Part shown: piece by piece, positions 4,499-20,276 of the stretch
How positions within the stretch are numbered: position 1 is the stretch's first letter
How the letters are laid out: each line of letters opens with the position of its first letter
Source: a virus
Virus record (IMG/VR): IMGVR_UViG_3300017744_000207
Coordinates: 1 to 20,276 of that record
Length of the DNA: 20,276 nucleotides
Reading direction: 5' to 3' (one strand)
Position numbers and translations under genes: made by a program
The notes under the pieces: model-generated
What the model was told of the DNA's origin: nothing
The model's input: only the letters and a program-made list of their open reading frames with translations
The model's database searches: none

Positions 4499-5230
4499 TT
4501 ATGCGTAACTATGAGAAGGTTTAAACTTTATCTGGTTGCTTGATTGGATTCTGTTTGCTAACAGGTGAGTGCTGCGTGTTTCCCGTGAAACACTATTCTT
4601 GGTACACACTGATAAACTCACCAAGGCTATAATCTCAAGTAAGATTGAGAGATATACATAGGCAAACAATCGTATCTTATTGGACGACACGCCTGTAACT
4701 CTGGCAAGGCCAGCGAACATAGGGGAACCCATCTCTTCGGGCGGGTTCCTCTCAAGCAAATCTAGATCTACTGCAATCTGACTAAGGTTATTCTCCCTCT
4801 TCAAGATATCTGATCTTAGATTCTTAGCGGCTGTGATCCTGTTGTACCCTTCATACTGAGCTGCCACTTGCATGTCAGCAGTGTTCATCTGTAAAAGCCT
4901 ATCTCTTTTAGATTGAAGCTGCTGATAAACCTCAGTCCTCTCAATGGCCCTGGCTTGAGAAGTCCTATCCGACTCCACGAAGAACCCAAGACTTGCCATC
5001 ATAGACACCGCAGTACACGCAGCGGATATCGCAAACAACCCAACCCTTTTGGCACCTATGCTATAGATAGCCATTAAACCAAAACCAAGCTGGGCTAAGT
5101 CATTGATAAGTCCAAGAACAGTTGCCTCTATATTGTTCCCATCTAAAGCCCAACAAAATCTGATAGTTAACCAGCACTTTAGAATGATTGCGAGTGTGCA
5201 GATAAAATAAAATATTGATTTGTTTTTCAT
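4499..5230 (-). CDS. Coiled-coil membrane protein, unknown function
   Basis: Start ATG at 5230 has GGGGAA ahead of it; a TTG nine codons upstream is possible but less likely. The 243 residues show about three hydrophobic segments in the first 95 residues (IFYFICTLAIILKCW, LAQLGFGLMAIYS, LFAISAACTAVSMMASLGFF), then about 95 residues of charged helix (SDRTSQARAIERTEVYQQL and on), and a last segment (YVYLSILLEIIALVSL) before a basic tail. This multi-span membrane plus central coiled-coil layout is seen in proteins of unknown role from phages and conjugative elements. It is the last leftward gene, next to the convergent terminator and separated from its neighbour by a hairpin and a palindrome, so it may be regulated separately. 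Superinfection exclusion or membrane takeover is a guess. Confidence 0.6.
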   Translation of the reverse strand: MKNKSIFYFICTLAIILKCWLTIRFCWALDGNNIEATVLGLINDLAQLGFGLMAIYSIGAKRVGLFAISAACTAVSMMASLGFFVESDRTSQARAIERTEVYQQLQSKRDRLLQMNTADMQVAAQYEGYNRITAAKNLRSDILKRENNLSQIAVDLDLLERNPPEEMGSPMFAGLARVTGVSSNKIRLFAYVYLSILLEIIALVSLSVCTKNSVSRETRSTHLLANRIQSSNQIKFKPSHSYA

Positions 5231-5258
5231 TATTATTCCCCGGTTGTGTTTTCCCAAG

Positions 5259-5274
5259 TGTCAATATTTTGACA
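5259..5274. promoter_or_regulatory. Palindrome TGTCAA-N4-TTGACA, possible regulatory site
   Basis: A perfect 6-bp inverted repeat spaced by four bases, lying in the gap upstream of the coiled-coil membrane gene. Each arm reads TTGACA on one strand, the consensus -35 hexamer, but no good -10 box lies 16-18 bases on in either direction. It may be a protein-binding site rather than a promoter. Confidence 0.35.
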
Positions 5275-5276
5275 GT

Positions 5277-5296
5277 GCCCCGTCCGAAGACGGGGC
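5277..5296 (-). terminator. UUCG-tetraloop hairpin after the small helical gene
   Basis: On the leftward strand GCCCCGTC and GACGGGGC form a perfect 8-bp stem closed by the very stable C(UUCG)G tetraloop, five bases past the stop of the gene at 5302. No U tract follows, so it may be a weak terminator, an RNA processing or stability element. Confidence 0.55.
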
Positions 5297-5301
5297 TAAT
5301 A

Positions 5302-5487
5302 TCATTTGGATTCTTTAATCTTTTGAATCCTGGCTTGAACCATAGCGTCTGCCATTTCATAAGCTTGCGCCGCTAACTTTTCAGCTTTATCAAATCTCAT
5401 TCTTGATTCACCTGCTACGAGACCTTGAACAATTGCCAAAGCAAATTCATCTCTCATAGTTTTTCGCGGTGTCTTACTTACTGCCAT
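5302..5487 (-). CDS. Small helical phage protein, unknown function
   Basis: 61 residues from the ATG at 5487, chosen because GGAG stands seven bases ahead; ATGs at 5490 and 5499 are in frame but badly placed. The pattern MRDEFALAIVQGLVAG ... AEKLAAQAYEMADAMVQAR is that of a widespread family of small, all-helical phage proteins found near replication genes, with no known biochemical role. It overlaps the end of the resolvase-like gene by 14 bases, so the two are probably translated together. Confidence 0.65.
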   Translation of the reverse strand: MAVSKTPRKTMRDEFALAIVQGLVAGESRMRFDKAEKLAAQAYEMADAMVQARIQKIKESK

Positions 5488-5824
5488 CATATTCTCCATA
5501 AGCTAGTTTAAGGATTTCAACAAAATCCGTTAGTCTCATTGTAGCTGTTGCTGGTTCTCTATCCCATTTGCAAATCGCTACACACTTCTTATCAGAGCCA
5601 TTGGTTGAGCTTGCTTCTTCTGCTTGCTCAAGTGCGGCTTTGATGTTCGGTCGTTTACCGACCTTGCACTCTACCCATATCTTGGGACAATCAACATCTG
5701 CTCTGGTGTCACCCGAAAAGCATTGGCCTGAACTTCTAATTGTCTTTGGTCCAAACACTTGCTTAAGAACATTTGCGATCTCCCTTTCAAAGCGAGCGCC
5801 TTTCTCTCTTTGATACTTACCCAT
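5474..5824 (-). CDS. PD-(D/E)XK nuclease, Holliday junction resolvase-like
   Basis: 116 residues from ATG at 5824 (MGKYQREKGARFER), the start typical of the family; a GTG six codons upstream is possible. Visible active-site elements: Glu in FEREIA near the N terminus, Asp in TRADVD, and the ECK triad in WVECKVG, giving E ... D ... ExK as in archaeal Hjc-type resolvases and related phage nucleases. The SSG turn (IRSSGQCFSGD) before the Asp also fits. The enzyme would cut branched DNA made during replication and recombination, in keeping with the Sak4-like ATPase and the Cas4-like nuclease further upstream in the same transcription unit. The start follows the preceding stop by two bases. Confidence 0.7.
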   Translation of the reverse strand: MGKYQREKGARFEREIANVLKQVFGPKTIRSSGQCFSGDTRADVDCPKIWVECKVGKRPNIKAALEQAEEASSTNGSDKKCVAICKWDREPATATMRLTDFVEILKLAYGEYDGSK

Positions 5825-5826
5825 AA

Positions 5827-6159
5827 TTAAAGTAACCCACACTTAACCCACAAAGGTTTGAGAACAAACCAATCGAAGATAGTGTAGATAGATTTACTTT
5901 CTCCTTTCGCTGCGGATAGTCTACGTTCAAGAGGTTTAAGCGACCTCTTAATAGATTTCAAATCTTTAATAACCTGTGTGTAACAGTTATAAAATTCAGT
6001 GGCATTCATAATACCAAGATTATCAACTCTCTTATCTTCGATAAGTTCCTGACTCTTATAGGATGATGCTATTTGAGCTATGTGTTTAATATCATCTTCC
6101 AAGCCTGTTAATAAATCTTCGATAATTTCTAAGTCTTGTTCCATAACAGTGTATTTCAT
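5827..6159 (-). CDS. Unknown helical protein
   Basis: 110 residues, start ATG with GGGGG five bases ahead. Mostly charged helix with heptad-like spacing (LEIIEDLLTGLEDDIKHIAQI; LKSIKRSLKPLERRL), then an aromatic C terminus (IFDWFVLKPLWVKC). No known motif. It lies between a zinc-ribbon gene and the resolvase-like gene with only a few bases on either side, so it belongs to the same operon. Confidence 0.55.
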   Translation of the reverse strand: MKYTVMEQDLEIIEDLLTGLEDDIKHIAQIASSYKSQELIEDKRVDNLGIMNATEFYNCYTQVIKDLKSIKRSLKPLERRLSAAKGESKSIYTIFDWFVLKPLWVKCGLL

Positions 6160-14132: not shown

Positions 14133-14223
14133 GACCCCCTCCGTCATCCCTCTTATCTATTAAGCCGGTGCAAAGTATGAATAACATTAGAAGCGTGTAT
14201 GCCCCTATGTACTCATCACTCAT
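13966..14223 (-). CDS. Candidate overlapping small membrane protein with Arg-rich tail
   Basis: The ATG at 14223 overlaps the stop of the repressor gene (ATGA), a junction used by many real genes in this window. The first 25 residues contain a good membrane span (YIGAYTLLMLFILCTGLI); the rest is Arg-rich and low in complexity (RKRSRRRRRNSRYNSARGSRR) and lies out of frame inside the next gene, so part of it may be a by-product of that gene's codons. Real translation of at least the N-terminal part is plausible; the full 85 residues are uncertain. Confidence 0.35.
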   Translation of the reverse strand: MSDEYIGAYTLLMLFILCTGLIDKRDDGGGHAEFGKIRKRSRRRRRNSRYNSARGSRRQGRSGEPQGENNKSDGGLLSTIDRSDR

Positions 14224-14456
14224 CCAGCTTTACCAAATATATCAGGACGCATTTCATATCTTGTAACTTGCCCCTTAACAATTTTTTCAATTAACAAACA
14301 CTTCTCTGCTGGAATCTTACCTCTAAGCTTCCAGCTATTGATAGAAGGTTGCTGTAGTTTTAACTCTCTCGCCAAAGCTGATTGGCTACCTAGAATTGAA
14401 ATAACTTTATCCAACGCTCTTGCTGCTGAATTTGCATTTGTTTTTGTCATACTCAT
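14220..14456 (-). CDS. Cro/YdaS-type helix-turn-helix repressor
   Basis: 78 residues with a helix-turn-helix of the YdaS/Cro type: ALDKVISILGSQSALARELKLQQPSINSWK gives helix 2 (QSALARELK) and the recognition helix (QQPSINSWK), followed by GKIPAEKCLLIEKIVKG, a sequence pattern typical of this family. It should act as a dimer on an inverted repeat. The gene has its own promoter with an 18-bp palindrome over the start region (14474-14491), so it probably controls itself. It stands upstream of the small genes and replication core, so it may set the level of all genes to its left. GGAGAG precedes the ATG. Confidence 0.85.
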   Translation of the reverse strand: MSMTKTNANSAARALDKVISILGSQSALARELKLQQPSINSWKLRGKIPAEKCLLIEKIVKGQVTRYEMRPDIFGKAG

Positions 14457-15068: not shown

Positions 15069-15216
15069 CTTTGTTTTCCTTTCTAAGATGTTTAAGAACT
15101 CTATGTAAAGCATTCTCGCAATCATTTATAAGAAGAGTTGCTTGCGTTGTGTCTTCATTAGAATCTTTATTGAACTCTTCGATGCGGTTTATTAATCTGA
15201 TTACTTGCCCTTCCAT
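15049..15216 (-). CDS. Small helical protein of 55 residues
   Basis: ATG at 15216 with GGGGGATTA ahead, ending in TGA at 15049-15051. The product (MEGQVIRLINRIEEFNKDSN ... CENALHRVLKHLRKEN) is amphipathic helix throughout. It overlaps the next gene by 20 bases and the previous one by 50 bases, so both ends are coupled. It fills what would otherwise be a gap between two genes. No family recognised. Confidence 0.6.
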   Translation of the reverse strand: MEGQVIRLINRIEEFNKDSNEDTTQATLLINDCENALHRVLKHLRKENKDGNIQV

Positions 15217-15592
15217 TAATCCCCCTTATTGAAAAGACGCCATCCTTAGTAAACCAAACCCGGTCAAGAGGTCCAGTTACTTTCGTGTCGTCTTTAGCCC
15301 ATATAAAAGTGTTATGAAACATAGGGTTAAAGGTAATCCTCTCCGCATTAGATGGAGGTACCTCAATAAAAGTTTCGGTGTACTCGCCAACTAAGAATAC
15401 CGCTGGTGTTTTCTTTCCAGTTTCTTTAATTGTTTCAAGGGTTTTGGAATTGATTTTAGAATCAACATTAACCAGTACAAGGTTCGGAGTACGCTCATGT
15501 TTATTAATCACCTTTCTTTTGTGCCTGATAGACCAGAAGCAGTTGTGCTTTCCCCTACCTCTTCTTAGGTTACGATACACCCATACTTTCAT
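15167..15592 (-). CDS. Unknown basic phage protein (KVWVYRNL type)
   Basis: 141 residues, strongly basic, beginning MKVWVYRNLRRGRGKHNCFWSIRHKRKVI. Short phage proteins that begin KVWVYRNL and go on with a FWSIRHKGRVI-like strand pair are frequent in early regions of marine phages; their role is unknown, nucleic acid binding is possible from charge. AGGAG precedes the ATG, which overlaps the lipoprotein stop (ATGA). The last 16 codons overlap the 55-residue gene. Confidence 0.55.
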   Translation of the reverse strand: MKVWVYRNLRRGRGKHNCFWSIRHKRKVINKHERTPNLVLVNVDSKINSKTLETIKETGKKTPAVFLVGEYTETFIEVPPSNAERITFNPMFHNTFIWAKDDTKVTGPLDRVWFTKDGVFSIRGINGRASNQINKPHRRVQ

Positions 15593-15918
15593 TGTGCTCT
15601 CCTGAAAAGTTTACGTGTTTTCTTTTTGTAGTATTTCTTCTTTGGTTTTACCTTCTTCTTTTTGGAAGGGCATTTATAGAATTTCATAGGACGTTTGTAT
15701 TCTTTACGTTCGAGTCTTTTAATTGTCCTAGTAAACCCATCCGTTTTTTTATTACGTCTTTCAAATTCCGCGTTATCCAACATTCTATCTAGGGTGCGTT
15801 TCTCCCAGTAGGTCATGCATCCACAAGAGGGATCATATCTTTTAGTTCTAAGAGTTGTGCAGCCAGATAGAAGAGAGAGCCCCACTGCAAGCAGGGCTCC
15901 CTTTCCTATGGTTTCCAT
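15589..15918 (-). CDS. Small basic lipoprotein
   Basis: 109 residues: METIGKGALLAVGLSLLSGC is a type II signal peptide with the lipobox LLSGC, so Cys20 would be lipid-modified and the protein held in the cell envelope. The mature part has CGC and a very Lys/Arg-rich C terminus (KKKKVKPKKKYYKKKTRK). An early-region phage lipoprotein could serve in superinfection exclusion or envelope modification; this is inference. The start overlaps the DUF932 stop (TAATG) and the stop overlaps the next start (ATGA). Confidence 0.7.
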   Translation of the reverse strand: METIGKGALLAVGLSLLSGCTTLRTKRYDPSCGCMTYWEKRTLDRMLDNAEFERRNKKTDGFTRTIKRLERKEYKRPMKFYKCPSKKKKVKPKKKYYKKKTRKLFRRAQ

Positions 15919-16880
15919 TATGCGGCCAGAAGCATATCATTCAGCGTAGTCTCAGCCTTGCTAACAAGGTTAGAGCCACTGCCGAACAACGCGCTTTCAA
16001 AGCGGTTGCCTTGGCCACCCTTGGAAGAACGGTAGTAGTTCACATACTCTGTGACTGCGTTGTATGCAGCCCAGCCTGTGAAGCGTACACCTGGAAGGTC
16101 TTGACCCCGGCCCATAAGGTAGAGGCTTTGAAGTTTGTCTCGTGCATTCTCAGCACGCTTCTTGTTCCCCTCCTTGGGATCTGGAATCAAAGTATTAGCA
16201 AACGTATTCCAATTATCATTGGTCATCTGCGTTTGAGCCAATGCCTTAGAAAAGTCTACGACATTTGCCAAGTGTTGGTTTGCAAGTCCGAAGATATGCC
16301 GAGCCTCGTCCATACGATTACGCATGTTCCGAGTGTGGCGAACCGAGATACCTTGACCCCTACCACCTTTCAAAGCCATAGCTACGGTGTTAGCACAAAC
16401 TACACGAACGGTAGTAGGCAAACATCGCAACGCTCCTGACCCATCATGGGAGTTGTAAAGCAGGATGTACTTGTCAACCAAGTCTCCAGGCAATGCCTCG
16501 AACTCTCCAATCTTTCCAAGCACCCAAATCTTCTTACCATTACGGAGAGACCCCGCAGTGTGGTAACGCATAAGACCCTCATCGACCAAAGAGTCCATGA
16601 ACTCAAAGGCTTCTGTGTTCTGTAGAAGGTTGTAGTTCTTACCTACTACCCCAAGCACTGAGTTATCCATTGGGCGAACAACTGCCCGTTGGTCAGGGAT
16701 TTCAATTGCCTCCTCCCCTGGCTCGGTGTGAGCATACATAGCACGCTTCTCCACTTCCCACTCAAGACCCGAAGCTTCCAAAGCTTGCTTGGAGTGTACG
16801 TTTTGATCTCCAACGTAAACACCTTCTCCATGCCAAGGTACATCGCCTGCGTACATCATTGTTTCTACTGCTGCTGCCAT
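15918..16880 (-). CDS. DUF932 (phage/plasmid-like) protein
   Basis: 320 residues from ATG at 16880, which has AAGGAGAACACA ahead; an in-frame start 26 codons further up lacks a ribosome site and would overlap the ardA-like gene. The opening (MMYAGDVPWHGEGVYV), the middle (RAVVRPMDNSVLGVVGKNYNLLQNTEAFEFMDSL) and CLPTTVRVVCANTVAMAL with the downstream SVRHTRNM are those of the DUF932 family found on plasmids and phages. Its biochemical role is not established. The family often occurs near anti-restriction and mobile-element maintenance genes, as here, where the ardA-like gene is directly upstream with a 10-base gap. Confidence 0.85.
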   Translation of the reverse strand: MAAAVETMMYAGDVPWHGEGVYVGDQNVHSKQALEASGLEWEVEKRAMYAHTEPGEEAIEIPDQRAVVRPMDNSVLGVVGKNYNLLQNTEAFEFMDSLVDEGLMRYHTAGSLRNGKKIWVLGKIGEFEALPGDLVDKYILLYNSHDGSGALRCLPTTVRVVCANTVAMALKGGRGQGISVRHTRNMRNRMDEARHIFGLANQHLANVVDFSKALAQTQMTNDNWNTFANTLIPDPKEGNKKRAENARDKLQSLYLMGRGQDLPGVRFTGWAAYNAVTEYVNYYRSSKGGQGNRFESALFGSGSNLVSKAETTLNDMLLAA

Positions 16881-16890
16881 TGTGTTCTCC

Positions 16891-17394
16891 TTAAATGCAA
16901 TTCGCATTTGTAATAGTAAAAGTCTCATTTGCGAACTCAACTTCGCAAACATCACCACCTAGTTTTAGATCCCTGGTGAAAGAATCGTAGTCAAAGTAAT
17001 TCGCTAAGTCACCCATCATCTTGGGTAGATCATAGCAATCATCAATTAGTTCATATGCATAGTCACTAGCTGCACCGGGATATACACAAACGTCTTCTAG
17101 TTTTCCTTTGGCGTCTTCCAGTGTGTATCCCAGATCCTCTAACAAGTAGAGTAATGCTACTATCTCAGAAGGGTATGACAAGTTATCAATGTATTCTAAG
17201 TAGTCATTAAGATTACATGAAGTAACATCGCAATGATCAAACAAAGCTAAGTGCTTATCATCATTACCTTGGTAACTTAGTTCAACTTCTTCTACGTCAT
17301 GTTGTTTCATTTTCTTTTCAAGTGACTCTAAATCCTCGAAAAAGAAAAAAGGTTTTCCAGTATCATAAGGTGTTGCACAGAAATCATTACCCAT
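16891..17394 (-). CDS. ardA: ArdA-type antirestriction protein
   Basis: 167 residues, very acidic, the usual ArdA length (about 165). The C-terminal third (YELIDDCYDLPKMM, then ANYFDYDSFTRDLKLGG, then ETFTITNAN) matches the conserved ArdA pattern of a long helix, YxDYxxxARDL and a final strand. ArdA is an elongated dimer that mimics B-form DNA and occupies type I restriction enzymes, so incoming phage DNA escapes cleavage. The N-terminal part is divergent and has FFFF at residues 16-19. AAGGAG precedes the ATG, and a perfect inverted repeat lies just upstream (17409-17427). It is followed by the DUF932 gene. Assignment rests on pattern, length and charge. Confidence 0.7.
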   Translation of the reverse strand: MGNDFCATPYDTGKPFFFFEDLESLEKKMKQHDVEEVELSYQGNDDKHLALFDHCDVTSCNLNDYLEYIDNLSYPSEIVALLYLLEDLGYTLEDAKGKLEDVCVYPGAASDYAYELIDDCYDLPKMMGDLANYFDYDSFTRDLKLGGDVCEVEFANETFTITNANCI

Positions 17395-17408
17395 AATTTC
17401 TCCTTTGT

Positions 17409-17427
17409 ATATAGCTGTATGCTATAT
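17409..17427. promoter_or_regulatory. Inverted repeat ATATAGC-N5-GCTATAT ahead of the ardA-like gene
   Basis: Perfect 7-bp arms with a 5-base spacer, about 15 bases from the start codon and directly before the ribosome site. It could be an operator or a hairpin in the leader RNA that limits translation. Its arms differ from those of the repressor palindrome at 14474-14491, though both carry a CTAT core. Confidence 0.45.
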
Positions 17428-17442
17428 GTTTAAATAAAAATA

Positions 17443-17649
17443 TTACTTACTCTTAAATAAAGTGTGTAATAACCAAGCCATAAAACCAGAAGCTAGAACT
17501 GACATTAAGAAACCTACAGAATAACTTACTGCGTTATGGAATGTGAACAGGTTGCTAAAATCTACAAGTGTCCCAGTCCTGTAACCGAGGAAACCTGACA
17601 TGAATATTGTAAAAACTACCCATACAAATAAGGATAAGGAGTTGCTCAT
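17443..17649 (-). CDS. Small two-helix membrane protein
   Basis: 68 residues with two hydrophobic segments (SLFVWVVFTIFMSGFLGY and AVSYSVGFLMSVLASGFMAWLL) and short polar ends. The start overlaps the preceding stop (ATGA). Size and topology resemble holins or exclusion proteins, but it lies in the early block far from the lysis genes, so membrane takeover or exclusion is more likely. No family recognised. Confidence 0.5.
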   Translation of the reverse strand: MSNSLSLFVWVVFTIFMSGFLGYRTGTLVDFSNLFTFHNAVSYSVGFLMSVLASGFMAWLLHTLFKSK

Positions 17650-17954
17650 TCAGCCCACCCCTGCTGCCTAATATAATCTAGGACTTCTTCAGACACTGGT
17701 GGTTTGTCTTCTTCAATCTCACCCTTGGTCCTGAAGTCAAAGTTGCTACCGTCTAACTGGTTAGAAGCCCCATAGATAGCAGCCAAGTCTCGAAGTGACA
17801 TATTGATTGGTGCCTCTTCTAGTTTACCTAAGTTCATCCTGATGCAAAGTGACCATGCCTGTTCAGCTACATGTGCTAGTCTTGTCGCTTCACCGGATGG
17901 TGAACCAAGGTTTTGAAATACTTTACGTGCTTTTTCTACTTTATGTGAACTCAT
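17646..17954 (-). CDS. Unknown soluble protein
   Basis: 102 residues, start ATG with AAGGGGGAACA ahead. Helical N terminus (HKVEKARKVFQNLG, ATRLAHVAEQAWSL), a middle stretch MSLRDLAAIYGASNQL that could be a short helix-turn-helix-like pair, and a C-terminal PPVSEEVLDYIRQQGW. No known family. It has a possible promoter upstream and is coupled to the small membrane gene downstream. Confidence 0.5.
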   Translation of the reverse strand: MSSHKVEKARKVFQNLGSPSGEATRLAHVAEQAWSLCIRMNLGKLEEAPINMSLRDLAAIYGASNQLDGSNFDFRTKGEIEEDKPPVSEEVLDYIRQQGWAE

Positions 17955-17980
17955 ATTGTTCCCCCTTGTAGAGAGTTTAT

Positions 17981-18009
17981 ATTATAGGTGTCGGTAAATC
18001 TACCCAATA
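17981..18009 (-). promoter_or_regulatory. Possible promoter with perfect TATAAT
   Basis: Reading leftward, TATAAT (17986-17981) is a perfect -10 box 27 bases before the start codon at 17954, in a 58-base gap. The -35 region is poor (TATTGG at 17 bp or TTGGGT at 15 bp). Weak unless activated. Confidence 0.3.
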
Positions 18010-18012
18010 CTC

Positions 18013-18291
18013 CTACCGTGGACCCTGAGATGTATTACCACAAGGACAATGGAAGTCGTTACAGCATGGCCCTTCTTGGCCTTCAGGGTTTTCATCTGCA
18101 TAGTGGTTCTCTAGAAACTCACGAACAGAGCTTTGAAAAAGCTCCCACTTCTTAAATGCTTCAGGCCCCTTGGCAGATACAGCATCTTGTAAAAGTTCCC
18201 AGCCATCATCATTGATGTAATCAATAACCTCACATGTCTCTCCAAGGTTATCCATCTTCTCATCAATAAAAGCTTCAAAGTCATCAACCAT
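18013..18291 (-). CDS. Acidic protein with C-terminal cysteine knuckle
   Basis: 92 residues, strongly acidic helical body (DDFEAFIDEKMDNLG, VIDYINDDGWELL) and a C terminus with PCCNDFHCPCGN, in which four cysteines and a histidine could bind zinc. AAAGGGAG precedes the ATG. The start lies inside the end of the preceding 45-residue gene (8-base overlap). Function unknown; small acidic early proteins of phages often bind and inhibit host proteins. Confidence 0.55.
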   Translation of the reverse strand: MVDDFEAFIDEKMDNLGETCEVIDYINDDGWELLQDAVSAKGPEAFKKWELFQSSVREFLENHYADENPEGQEGPCCNDFHCPCGNTSQGPR

Positions 18292-18421
18292 TTGTATCTC
18301 CCTTTAAGATTAGTTCTACTGCTCTTCTGATCTCTTCATCAGAATACCACTCTCTTAAATTCTCAATTGTCATTACCAACGCTTGAAGGTTGGATCCTAA
18401 TGCTATGTCTTTATCTATCAT
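18284..18421 (-). CDS. Very small protein of 45 residues
   Basis: ATG at 18421 with AGAGGGATAAGCT ahead, TGA at 18284-18286. The product (MIDKDIALGSNLQALVM, IENLREWYSDEEIRRAVEL) is likely helical; its last eight bases overlap the start of the next gene. The ribosome site and tight junction argue for a real gene. Confidence 0.5.
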   Translation of the reverse strand: MIDKDIALGSNLQALVMTIENLREWYSDEEIRRAVELILKGDTNG

Positions 18422-18454
18422 AGCTTATCCCTCTTGTCTATAGATTAGGGTAAA

Positions 18455-18667
18455 TTAAAGTACCTCTACAATCTGGCTACCATAAGCCCATGCCCCATCG
18501 AAACCAATTACTAGATACTTCTTTGATTCTAATCTGGCTGCTGGTACAGGTGTACCGTACTTGCCACGCTCCTGCTTACACAGCTCAATGCGTGTGACAA
18601 CATCCTCAAGAATTGGTCCACCCCCGAAGCAGCTACGGTATCTAATCTTGTCTCCGACTCTAATCAT
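18455..18667 (-). CDS. Small beta-rich protein
   Basis: 70 residues beginning MIRVGDKIRYRSCFGGG, followed by alternating strands (VVTRIELCK, KKYLVIGFDGAW) and a hydrophobic end. The opening pattern VGDKIRYR with later IGFDGAW is that of a small SH3-like barrel, often seen in phage and ribosome-associated small proteins. The start overlaps the preceding gene by eight bases, with GGAGAAC ahead. Function unknown. Confidence 0.5.
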   Translation of the reverse strand: MIRVGDKIRYRSCFGGGPILEDVVTRIELCKQERGKYGTPVPAARLESKKYLVIGFDGAWAYGSQIVEVL

Positions 18668-18878
18668 TTAGTTCTCCTCTTTTTAATTGTTCAAAGTAAA
18701 CAAGCTTTTCTTTAATAGAATCTTTTGCTTTATTAAGAGCATAAAAAGGCGTCTCAAAGATTAACTCTTTATCCCCCTCATGGATTGAATAACTCCAAAT
18801 TTCTTTCTTTGCATAACTAATGTTCACGTAAAAAATCTTCACTTCATACGTGTCATTAACCATGTAATTCTCAACCAT
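18660..18878 (-). CDS. Unknown small protein
   Basis: 72 residues from ATG at 18878, chosen because GAGGTGG is correctly placed; an ATG at 18893 has no ribosome site. Pattern of a beta-rich front (YEVKIFYVNISYAKKEIWSY) and a helical tail (AKDSIKEKLVYFEQLKRG). Overlaps both neighbours by eight bases, so it is coupled on each side. No family recognised. Confidence 0.5.
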   Translation of the reverse strand: MVENYMVNDTYEVKIFYVNISYAKKEIWSYSIHEGDKELIFETPFYALNKAKDSIKEKLVYFEQLKRGELND

Positions 18879-19089
18879 ATGACACCACCTCATAATACAT
18901 TGCTAAGTCTAACCAAATTGTTTGATCATCTAAATAGACCAGTTGCTTCTCATACTTCACACCTTTCTCAATGTCGAAGCATATTGCAACAGCCGAAGTA
19001 AAGTCATCATTCCACTCAATGATGTTAATGATATGCCAGCCCAGCAAGGTATCATCCTTATGCCTTTCTAAAAGTTTCATACATGTCAT
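18871..19089 (-). CDS. Unknown small protein, paralogous at its start to the short ORF at 19327
   Basis: 72 residues beginning MTCMKLLERHKDDTLLGWHIINIIEW, with further strands (AVAICFDIEKG, KQLVYLDD) and an aromatic end. AGGAG precedes the ATG. The first 13 codons resemble those of the short ORF at 19327 (MTSLKLLERHKDE), about 80 percent identical over 41 bases, so one is probably a partial copy of the other. Function unknown. Confidence 0.5.
   Translation of the reverse strand: MTCMKLLERHKDDTLLGWHIINIIEWNDDFTSAVAICFDIEKGVKYEKQLVYLDDQTIWLDLAMYYEVVSYG
19049..19089 (-). repeat. Copy A of a duplicated gene start
   Basis: 41 bases from the start codon at 19089 match the 41 bases at 19287-19327 at 33 of 41 positions, with CATAAGGATGA and AAACTT kept exactly. 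Most differences are at third or conservative codon positions, so the peptide has been kept under selection in one or both copies. Confidence 0.6.
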
Positions 19090-19100
19090 GCTTTATTCTC

Positions 19101-19277
19101 CTAGTACGGGTAAAGGTAGCTACGGTCACACGCTGAACACTTTCGCCCGATCCTTGTTGTCCAACCTTCTCTTCCGTATTTAGTGTCTTTAAATTCCTCC
19201 ATATGGTGCCGGTTATCTTCACTTTTCTCACAATGAGATGCGTCTATTTCTTTTCGTTGTTCTTCAAAGTCTTTCAC
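19101..19277 (-). CDS. Small Cys/His protein of 58 residues
   Basis: GTG at 19277 with GGGGGG four bases ahead; TAG at 19101-19103. The product begins VKDFEEQRKEIDASHCEK and ends WTTRIGRKCSACDRSYLYPY. One Cys and several His in the middle plus the CSAC pair could bind zinc. GTG overlaps the stop of the 17-codon ORF upstream (GTGA). It may be made by coupling, or by a -1 shift in G_GGG_GGC, which would fuse it to MTSLKLLERHKDETGG. It explains most of the region 19104-19274. Confidence 0.5.
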   Translation of the reverse strand: MKDFEEQRKEIDASHCEKSEDNRHHMEEFKDTKYGREGWTTRIGRKCSACDRSYLYPY

Positions 19278-19327
19278 AAGCCCCCCGTCTCATCCTTATG
19301 TCTTTCAAGAAGTTTTAGGGATGTCAT
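19274..19327 (-). CDS. 17-codon ORF, coupled leader or remnant
   Basis: ATG at 19327 overlaps the stop of the preceding gene (ATGA), and the TGA at 19274 overlaps the GTG of the next one. Its peptide (MTSLKLLERHKDETGGL) copies the start of the 72-residue protein at 19089. The end contains the correctly phased heptamer G_GGG_GGC, directly before TTG TGA. It may be a leader, the front half of a frameshifted gene, or a remnant cut short by an indel in the G run. Confidence 0.4.
   Translation of the reverse strand: MTSLKLLERHKDETGGL
19287..19327 (-). repeat. Copy B of a duplicated gene start
   Basis: Partner of 19049-19089 (33 of 41 bases identical), 238 bases apart and in the same direction. 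The similarity ends where copy B enters its G run. Confidence 0.6.
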
Positions 19328-19806
19328 GCCGCCTCCTCTCTCAAATCTTCAATGAACTCATCGAGTTCTTTTGTTAACAGATCAAAACAAAACACTTCGT
19401 ATGAACAGTCAAGGTACGCATAGTGTACAGGCCCACTATTCCATTCATGTTTAGCAATATGAAACTCATCTGACTCGTAGGACTCTAAGTCCTCTGGTAG
19501 TTCAATTTCAATCTCACCAAGGATGTAGGATGCAAAGCATTTCTTTCTTGGCCAGCCTCCCAAAGCAAAGCCAAGGTTGATTTCGTACAAGGCCCCGAAG
19601 TGGCAGATATGCTCCACCACTTCGTTAACTTCCTTGTCTGTGAGTTCTTCTGTACTTGCTTCACGGATTGCATTATGCCAACGCTCTTCGTTCATTACAT
19701 AATCATCCGGTAAAAAAGTTACGAACTCCCCTGCATAATTCCCTTCGGGGTTGAGGTAATACTCATCCCGCATCTGTTCAAGGTATTCATCCAGTTTGGT
19801 TGTCAT
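19324..19806 (-). CDS. Unknown very acidic protein
   Basis: 160 residues from ATG at 19806 (MTTKLDEYLEQMRDEYY), with GGAGAAAACTG ahead; the longer start six codons up lacks a ribosome site. Asp/Glu-rich along its whole length (EELTDKEVNEVVEH, EIEIELPEDLESYESDEFH, ELDEFIEDLREEAA) with few basic residues. Such charge is typical of DNA-mimic or inhibitor proteins of phages, and the gene lies in the same block as the ardA-like gene. No family recognised; a DNA-mimic role is inference. The stop overlaps the 17-codon ORF and the start overlaps the preceding gene by 20 bases. Confidence 0.55.
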   Translation of the reverse strand: MTTKLDEYLEQMRDEYYLNPEGNYAGEFVTFLPDDYVMNEERWHNAIREASTEELTDKEVNEVVEHICHFGALYEINLGFALGGWPRKKCFASYILGEIEIELPEDLESYESDEFHIAKHEWNSGPVHYAYLDCSYEVFCFDLLTKELDEFIEDLREEAA

Positions 19807-20029
19807 CAGTTTTCTCCTCATCAAACGAGCTGTTTGATACTATACGTTCATTTGTTTTAATAAACTCGGGAAGTCCTGCCTTATCTGAGAAAAGAATGAT
19901 GACGTTTTTTAACCCTTCTGCCATATATGATATAGTTGTTACCGTATAAAGTTCGCCACACTCCCGTTGGCAATTCTCTTCATGGATAAAAATTTTCTTC
20001 TTCACGTAATGTGAACTTAAGTCAGCCAT
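19787..20029 (-). CDS. Unknown small protein
   Basis: 80 residues, start ATG with TAGGAGAACACT ahead. Basic N terminus (SSHYVKKKIFIHEEN) with CQREC, then strands and a helix (TVTTISYMAEGLKNVIILFSD, LPEFIKTNERIV) and an acidic tail (DEEKTDDNQTG). The two cysteines could bind metal with a partner. Overlaps the next gene by 20 bases. Function unknown. Confidence 0.5.
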   Translation of the reverse strand: MADLSSHYVKKKIFIHEENCQRECGELYTVTTISYMAEGLKNVIILFSDKAGLPEFIKTNERIVSNSSFDEEKTDDNQTG

Positions 20030-20038
20030 AGTGTTCTC

Positions 20039-20263
20039 CTAAATTAAAGGCATTTGTGTTTCATACTTAAGGGTTTCGTCATTCATAATCTTATGCGCTA
20101 CCTTGCAGGCATACTCATTACGACCGTCGAAGTTATTATTCGCATATTGGTCCGACTGAAATCTCAGCCATGCGTAACAAAGTTTAGAGAAAGATTGCTG
20201 AAGGGTGCGGTGTTGCTTGCCCATAATCTTACAAAACTTTTTAATGCGTGACTCGTTAGCCAT
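20039..20263 (-). CDS. Unknown basic helical protein, start near the window edge
   Basis: 74 residues from ATG at 20263. The 13 bases before it contain no clear ribosome site and the frame remains open to the window edge, so the true start may lie further right. The sequence is Lys/Arg-rich and helical (RIKKFCKIMGKQHRTLQQSFSKLCYAWLRF), with a C-terminal ACKVAHKIMND. Likely soluble; role unknown. The next gene's start is 10 bases past its stop. Confidence 0.45.
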   Translation of the reverse strand: MANESRIKKFCKIMGKQHRTLQQSFSKLCYAWLRFQSDQYANNNFDGRNEYACKVAHKIMNDETLKYETQMPLI

Positions 20264-20276
20264 TGCGTTAATAAAA

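Follow-up and report, generated by a model that had tools for sequence, protein, structure and literature searches.

Background

Orf18 of Tn916 is an ArdA protein with a solved structure (PDB 2W82; PF07275), in which Leu127 and Leu134 touch each other across the dimer (PMC3906837). Phages carry such proteins as well. The ArdA-like proteins of Mycobacterium phage Theia (gp81), Gordonia phage SpeedDemon and Rhodococcus phage RGL3 belong to the same family, and Theia has a Cas4 exonuclease about 4 kb downstream of its ArdA-like gene. An ArdA-like protein of Rhodococcus phage WC1 is expressed by 5 min, together with a Cas4 exonuclease (PMC10986025). In the anti-defence islands of conjugative elements ArdA is found among variable small genes (PMC11541004, PMC7648647).

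Here we analyse a 20,276-base contig of an uncultivated virus, which we call the window. A preliminary description proposed that a block of small genes at 15589-20263, containing an ArdA-like and a DUF932 protein, is a candidate anti-defence island. We read the locus as a further case of a known kind, an ArdA in a phage accessory slot with a few uncharacterised neighbours. Its ArdA is like Orf18 in length, in acidic charge over three domains, in the sequence of the C-terminal domain and in the interface leucines. It is unlike Orf18 in that the N-terminal third can hardly be aligned, in having seven cysteines, and in lying within a phage replication operon instead of a transfer region. Compared with the annotated proteins of Theia, SpeedDemon and RGL3 it shows 34-42% identity over 33-44% of the protein, that is, a third to under half of it. 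Theia and SpeedDemon share its charge (-16 to -17 per 100 aa) and its setting among small genes, but neither of these two examined loci has a DUF932 gene within about 5 kb. The window's DUF932 protein matches DUF932 / TIGR03299 proteins over its full length, and only in the window's clade is ArdA its neighbour. The locus resembles the conjugative-element islands in having ArdA among variable small genes; unlike them it has one known anti-defence gene and forms no discrete region apart from replication.

The gene block and its coding evidence

No near relative of the window at the DNA level was found among 50,697 phage records. The comparisons below use eight related contigs (L numbers) from three lineages; six are about 90% identical and two, L010 (35.9 kb) and L033 (54.7 kb), are more distant. 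Minus-strand genes run from 20263 down to about 4.5 kb, and the block contains 14 small ORFs, nearly contiguous or overlapping. These are listed with the L5 gp82-like gene that adjoins them. Slot A is the place between 18284 and 17646, and slot C the place between the lipoprotein and the L5 gp82-like gene (the 15589/15592 junction).

15167..15592, minus strand: L5 gp82-like protein, downstream side of slot C (PF25735, 44.7 bits against 27); conserved in L010 and L033
15589..15918, minus strand: small backbone lipoprotein with lipobox LLSGC and a very basic mature part; in all relatives including L010 and L033
15918..16880, minus strand: DUF932 / TIGR03299 phage-plasmid protein, 320 aa, backbone gene
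16891..17394, minus strand: ArdA-family anti-restriction protein, 167 aa, net charge -27
17443..17649, minus strand: 68-aa membrane protein in a backbone position, held in L010 and L033 by a 77-aa membrane protein
17646..17954, minus strand: conserved 102-aa backbone protein, 49-52% identity in L010/L033 and 91-95% in close relatives
18013..18291, minus strand: acidic 92-aa protein in slot A, -17.4 charges per 100 aa; other occupants in relatives
18284..18421, minus strand: 45-aa protein, 82% in L003, dN/dS 0.25-0.5
18455..18667, minus strand: 70-aa protein, 89% in L003, dN/dS 0.10
18660..18878, minus strand: 72-aa protein with only its two ends in common with a 182-aa phrog_6186 protein of L003
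18871..19089, minus strand: 72-aa protein, 83% in L003, dN/dS 0.14
19101..19277, minus strand: doubtful 58-aa Cys-containing ORF whose weak GTG start overlaps the stop of a 17-codon leader; no relatives
19324..19806, minus strand: acidic 160-aa orphan protein, candidate DNA mimic, -17.6 charges per 100 aa; no relatives
19787..20029, minus strand: 80-aa orphan protein with a good ribosome-binding site; no relatives
20039..20263, minus strand: 74-aa orphan protein at the contig end

Most starts in the block have a Shine-Dalgarno-like sequence, and dN/dS against the relatives is at most about 0.5 in every block gene compared (18660, 19101, 19324, 19787 and 20039 are left out, the last four having no relative to compare). 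The compared genes are therefore real, and they are under purifying selection. Other parts of the preliminary description also stand: the ArdA-like and DUF932 proteins both score above their Pfam cut-offs, and the lipoprotein and the small membrane protein are both present. Its statement that many of the genes are acidic or Cys-rich needs to be weakened, since only three or four are strongly acidic, several are basic (the lipoprotein at +25, 20039 at +5, 18455 at +3) and Cys-richness is modest. We infer the early status of the block from its position and by analogy with phage WC1 (PMC10986025). Promoter and terminator scans did no better than shuffled sequences.

Genes 19101-20263 have no relatives in any related locus compared. 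The 18660-18878 protein looks like the phrog_6186 protein of L003 with an internal deletion. The 17-codon ORF at 19277-19327 has a good ribosome-binding site, its stop overlaps the GTG start of 19101, and it resembles the N-terminal end of the 18871 protein (KLLERHKD); it is a candidate for a leftover of gene shuffling or a coupled leader arising from it.

A fixed backbone that leads into replication genes

Comparison with the relatives divides the block into two parts. Leftward of 17954 the order is fixed, and upstream of this point the content turns over quickly. The order is 17646, membrane protein, ArdA where present, DUF932, lipoprotein, slot C, L5 gp82-like protein, 14526, YdaS/Cro-like protein, 13776, membrane protein, SNF2 and primase. 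It is common to all three lineages wherever the contigs reach, bearing in mind that these are only three independent lineages and mostly fragments. The order of 17646, the membrane protein, DUF932, the lipoprotein and the L5 gp82-like protein is kept at roughly 37-72% protein identity. Gene-for-gene conservation, which the preliminary description had named as counting against an island, is partly seen in the downstream half, from 17646 to the L5 gp82-like gene.

Some backbone genes evolve fast too, the lipoprotein being 44% identical between sister phages, so the divergence is wider than the slots alone. The C-terminus of this lipoprotein is rich in lysine and arginine (net +25), and the basic tail is absent in L010 and L033. 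The YdaS/Cro-like protein at 14220-14456 (PF15943, 80 bits) is predicted to bind DNA and lies in the operon of all lineages.

The ArdA gene

The protein encoded at 16891-17394 matches Pfam PF07275 over residues 37-152 with 41 bits (cut-off 27) and phrog_2059 'anti-restriction protein' with an E of 3.9e-11. A profile search with it finds the Tn916 ArdA structure (PDB 2w82, E 5.5e-4). Acidic residues outnumber basic ones in all three domains (D+E/K+R 14/5, 8/2 and 15/3), and the resulting -16.2 charges per 100 aa equal those of annotated phage ArdAs, where net charge is -30 in Theia and -29 in SpeedDemon. Leu127 and Leu134 of Orf18 align to L123 and L130 in the 2w82 profile alignment, and both are invariant in 7/7 ArdA sequences aligned. 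The AF2 model is weak (pLDDT 70, pTM 0.50). Compared with known structures it ranks 2w82 second, with Z 3.6 and rmsd 4.5 over the C-terminal 70 residues only, and a Foldseek search at E 0.001 returns nothing. So weak a model cannot confirm the fold, and family membership therefore rests on sequence. We conclude that this is a genuine but distant ArdA-type gene, for which anti-restriction activity is predicted.

At a dN/dS of 0.23-0.33 the gene is not under diversifying selection, and constraint on it is weaker than on DUF932 (0.10-0.15) or on the SNF2 helicase (0.06-0.09). Searches for its relatives found none in plasmids and, by a pattern-based scan, none in 84,980 species genomes.

Two palindromes lie at the edges of the gene. 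A perfect 17-bp palindrome, AAATGC-N5-GCATTT, is found at 16893-16909, at the ArdA stop and just upstream of DUF932. It occurs exactly once in each related contig and in none of 100 shuffles of the window, and L033, which lacks ArdA, keeps it with a different spacer. It is possibly an operator or an RNA hairpin or, in L033, a scar of ArdA loss. The second, ATAGC-N5-GCTAT at 17411-17425, lies upstream of ArdA and is found at the same position in L010; L033 has TTAGT-N5-GCTAA there, a change that looks compensatory. The YdaS/Cro-like protein is a candidate regulator of both.

Gain and loss of ArdA, and the exchangeable slots

In L033 DUF932 (5001-5978) comes straight after the membrane protein (4658-4891). 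All the flanking genes are present, and ArdA is absent from the entire 54,675-base record. For L006, identity to the window is 96-100% along most of the downstream stretch but falls to 75-82% over the 5' two-thirds of ardA, or 75-86% when the start of the DUF932 gene is included. This local drop tells us that alleles have been exchanged, and together with L033 it makes ArdA an exchangeable cassette. Phages of this group acquire or lose ArdA at a single slot of an otherwise collinear operon.

The other slots also change hands. In the window, as in L002 and L005, slot A is filled by 18013; L003 and L004 have a hyperacidic 109-aa ORF there, and L010 and L033 an unrelated ORF. Slot C is empty in the window and L010, while elsewhere it holds an ORF of 68 aa (L005, L006), 132 and 68 aa (L003, L004), 143 aa (L002), 112 aa (L008) or 38 aa (L033). 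No convincing family match was found for the slot ORFs compared. Between the L033 and L010 phages identity is 95-98% across the first 6.2 kb, and on the replication side it is 91.9% across 12.0 kb. About 16.7 kb separates these two parts, and only 5.6 kb of it (about a third) can be aligned, in eight patches at 66-88%; a single stretch of 6.7 kb does not align at all.

The fast turnover expected by the preliminary description is therefore real for the upstream half (17955-20276), ArdA and the two slots, but not for the order of the backbone. The turnover supports an arms-race region, though one with a fixed backbone order inside it.

The acidic proteins 19324 and 18013

The strong acidity first described for 19324 and 18013 is confirmed, and with ArdA they are the three most acidic of the 17 small window ORFs scored. 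The start of 19324 is probably the ATG at 19806, giving 160 aa. It has no homologue in viral contigs, phages, plasmids or the PDB (tblastn, Pfam, PHROGs, NCBIfam and PDB searches), and we rejected the idea that it is itself an ArdA homologue, as hhalign against ArdA gave nothing. Homologues of 18013 were found only in two close relatives, so neither protein has known relatives outside this phage group.

Charges of -15 or below per 100 aa are found in 5% and 14% of the small ORFs of the two relatives scored, and in 0 of the larger ORFs. Charge alone is insufficient evidence of DNA mimicry because acidic small ORFs occur elsewhere in these phages, including the relative without ArdA. We think it improbable that slot A is a dedicated place for interchangeable acidic inhibitors (18013 and the 109-aa ORF of L003/L004) with 19324 as a further DNA mimic. 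If it were so, these would be novel families of inhibitors, acting on defences other than type I restriction.

The DUF932 gene

The match of 15918-16880 to its family is full-length and strong (Pfam 198 bits against 23; NCBIfam 259.8 against 110.7), and the gene is present in all relatives. ArdA was found within about 5 kb of DUF932 in 0/72 distant phage loci, as far as the contigs permit, and DUF932 at 0/9 other ArdA loci. The two are neighbours only in this phage group, even though many of the fetched loci hold DUF932. Anti-defence by association is therefore rejected for DUF932 as a general rule.

The AF2 model of DUF932 is confident (pLDDT 87.6). No solved structure matched its fold; the best Foldseek hit has E 0.013 and TM < 0.2, and the best VIA match (Z 6.3) covers 82 helical residues only and is not usable. 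Nine residues (G115, D133, R159, C162, N164, H182, W270, A272 and N274) are invariant in 49 DUF932 sequences, which suggests a catalytic or ligand-binding site. A search of the literature on DUF932 found no function. At two distant loci, too few to generalise from, Pfam places DUF932 next to a PD-(D/E)XK nuclease and an AAA_24 ATPase, and both families also occur in the window's replication operon. Insensitive profiles derived from the window find replication-gene neighbours at 7/72 distant loci, all SNF2. One gene on from the DUF932 of a 174-kb phage contig (L035:6271-7479) is a PARP catalytic domain protein with a weak WGR match. It is more likely that the conserved block genes, DUF932 among them, serve general early phage functions.

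Which explanation fits the locus?

We consider it likely that the region forms the upstream end of an early/replication operon transcribed leftward. Its fixed-order backbone, 17646 to SNF2 helicase and primase, has accessory slots between its genes and a hypervariable stretch upstream. One slot holds a real, acidic ArdA, which would act as an elongated, probably dimeric DNA mimic against type I restriction. Made soon after entry, ArdA would fill the DNA-binding groove of the host's type I restriction-modification enzymes, so incoming phage DNA would be protected. Accessory roles in host interaction are probable for the other variable genes, of which some may be anti-defence.

Phages typically have small early genes that evolve fast and whose role is unknown. 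The region could be an ordinary early region, in which small genes serve host takeover, regulation and many other functions and ArdA is the sole anti-defence gene, and we give this an even chance. The block adjoins the replication operon and its YdaS/Cro-like regulator without a break, and the acidic small ORFs of the ArdA-less relative fit as well. Taken alone, however, this reading leaves unexplained why ArdA and the neighbouring slots swap while the order is kept.

A true island would mean that most of the small genes, including 19324 and 18013, are inhibitors of different defences clustered with ArdA. Mobile elements are known to carry clusters of anti-defence genes surrounded by small genes of unknown function (PMC7648647; PMC11541004). 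The fast turnover and slot swapping, and a charge density in 19324 and 18013 equal to that of ArdA, also speak for it, and a block-wide anti-defence function is possible. An island should contain several recognised anti-defence genes, but ArdA is the single one here; no known anti-defence or defence family was found in the other block genes (Pfam, PHROGs and NCBIfam included). Its content should be accessory and fast-changing, which is true of the slots and the upstream half but not of the backbone order, and half of the block is conserved backbone. It should also be discrete from replication, but the same strand and order continue into SNF2 and primase in three lineages. We therefore regard an island as unlikely. 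The interpretation in the preliminary description is supported in part: the ArdA is real and exchangeable and the region varies, but no second anti-defence gene can be named. It is very unlikely that the ArdA homologue has turned regulator, a DNA mimic titrating a phage or host DNA-binding protein instead of acting against restriction, because presence/absence and allele exchange better fit an accessory counter-defence role, even though its N-terminal half is divergent, its C-terminus is strongly conserved and chromosomal ArdAs can alter gene expression (PMC12548430).

Implications

DUF932 is widespread in phages, and an anti-defence label for it is not warranted from this neighbourhood. At this locus the natural presence/absence of a distant phage ArdA, and the exchange of its alleles, can be followed directly in an otherwise collinear operon. 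Relatives have unrelated small genes in the slots at 16891-17394, 18013-18291 and the 15589/15592 junction, and searching such slots is an efficient way to find new anti-defence proteins.
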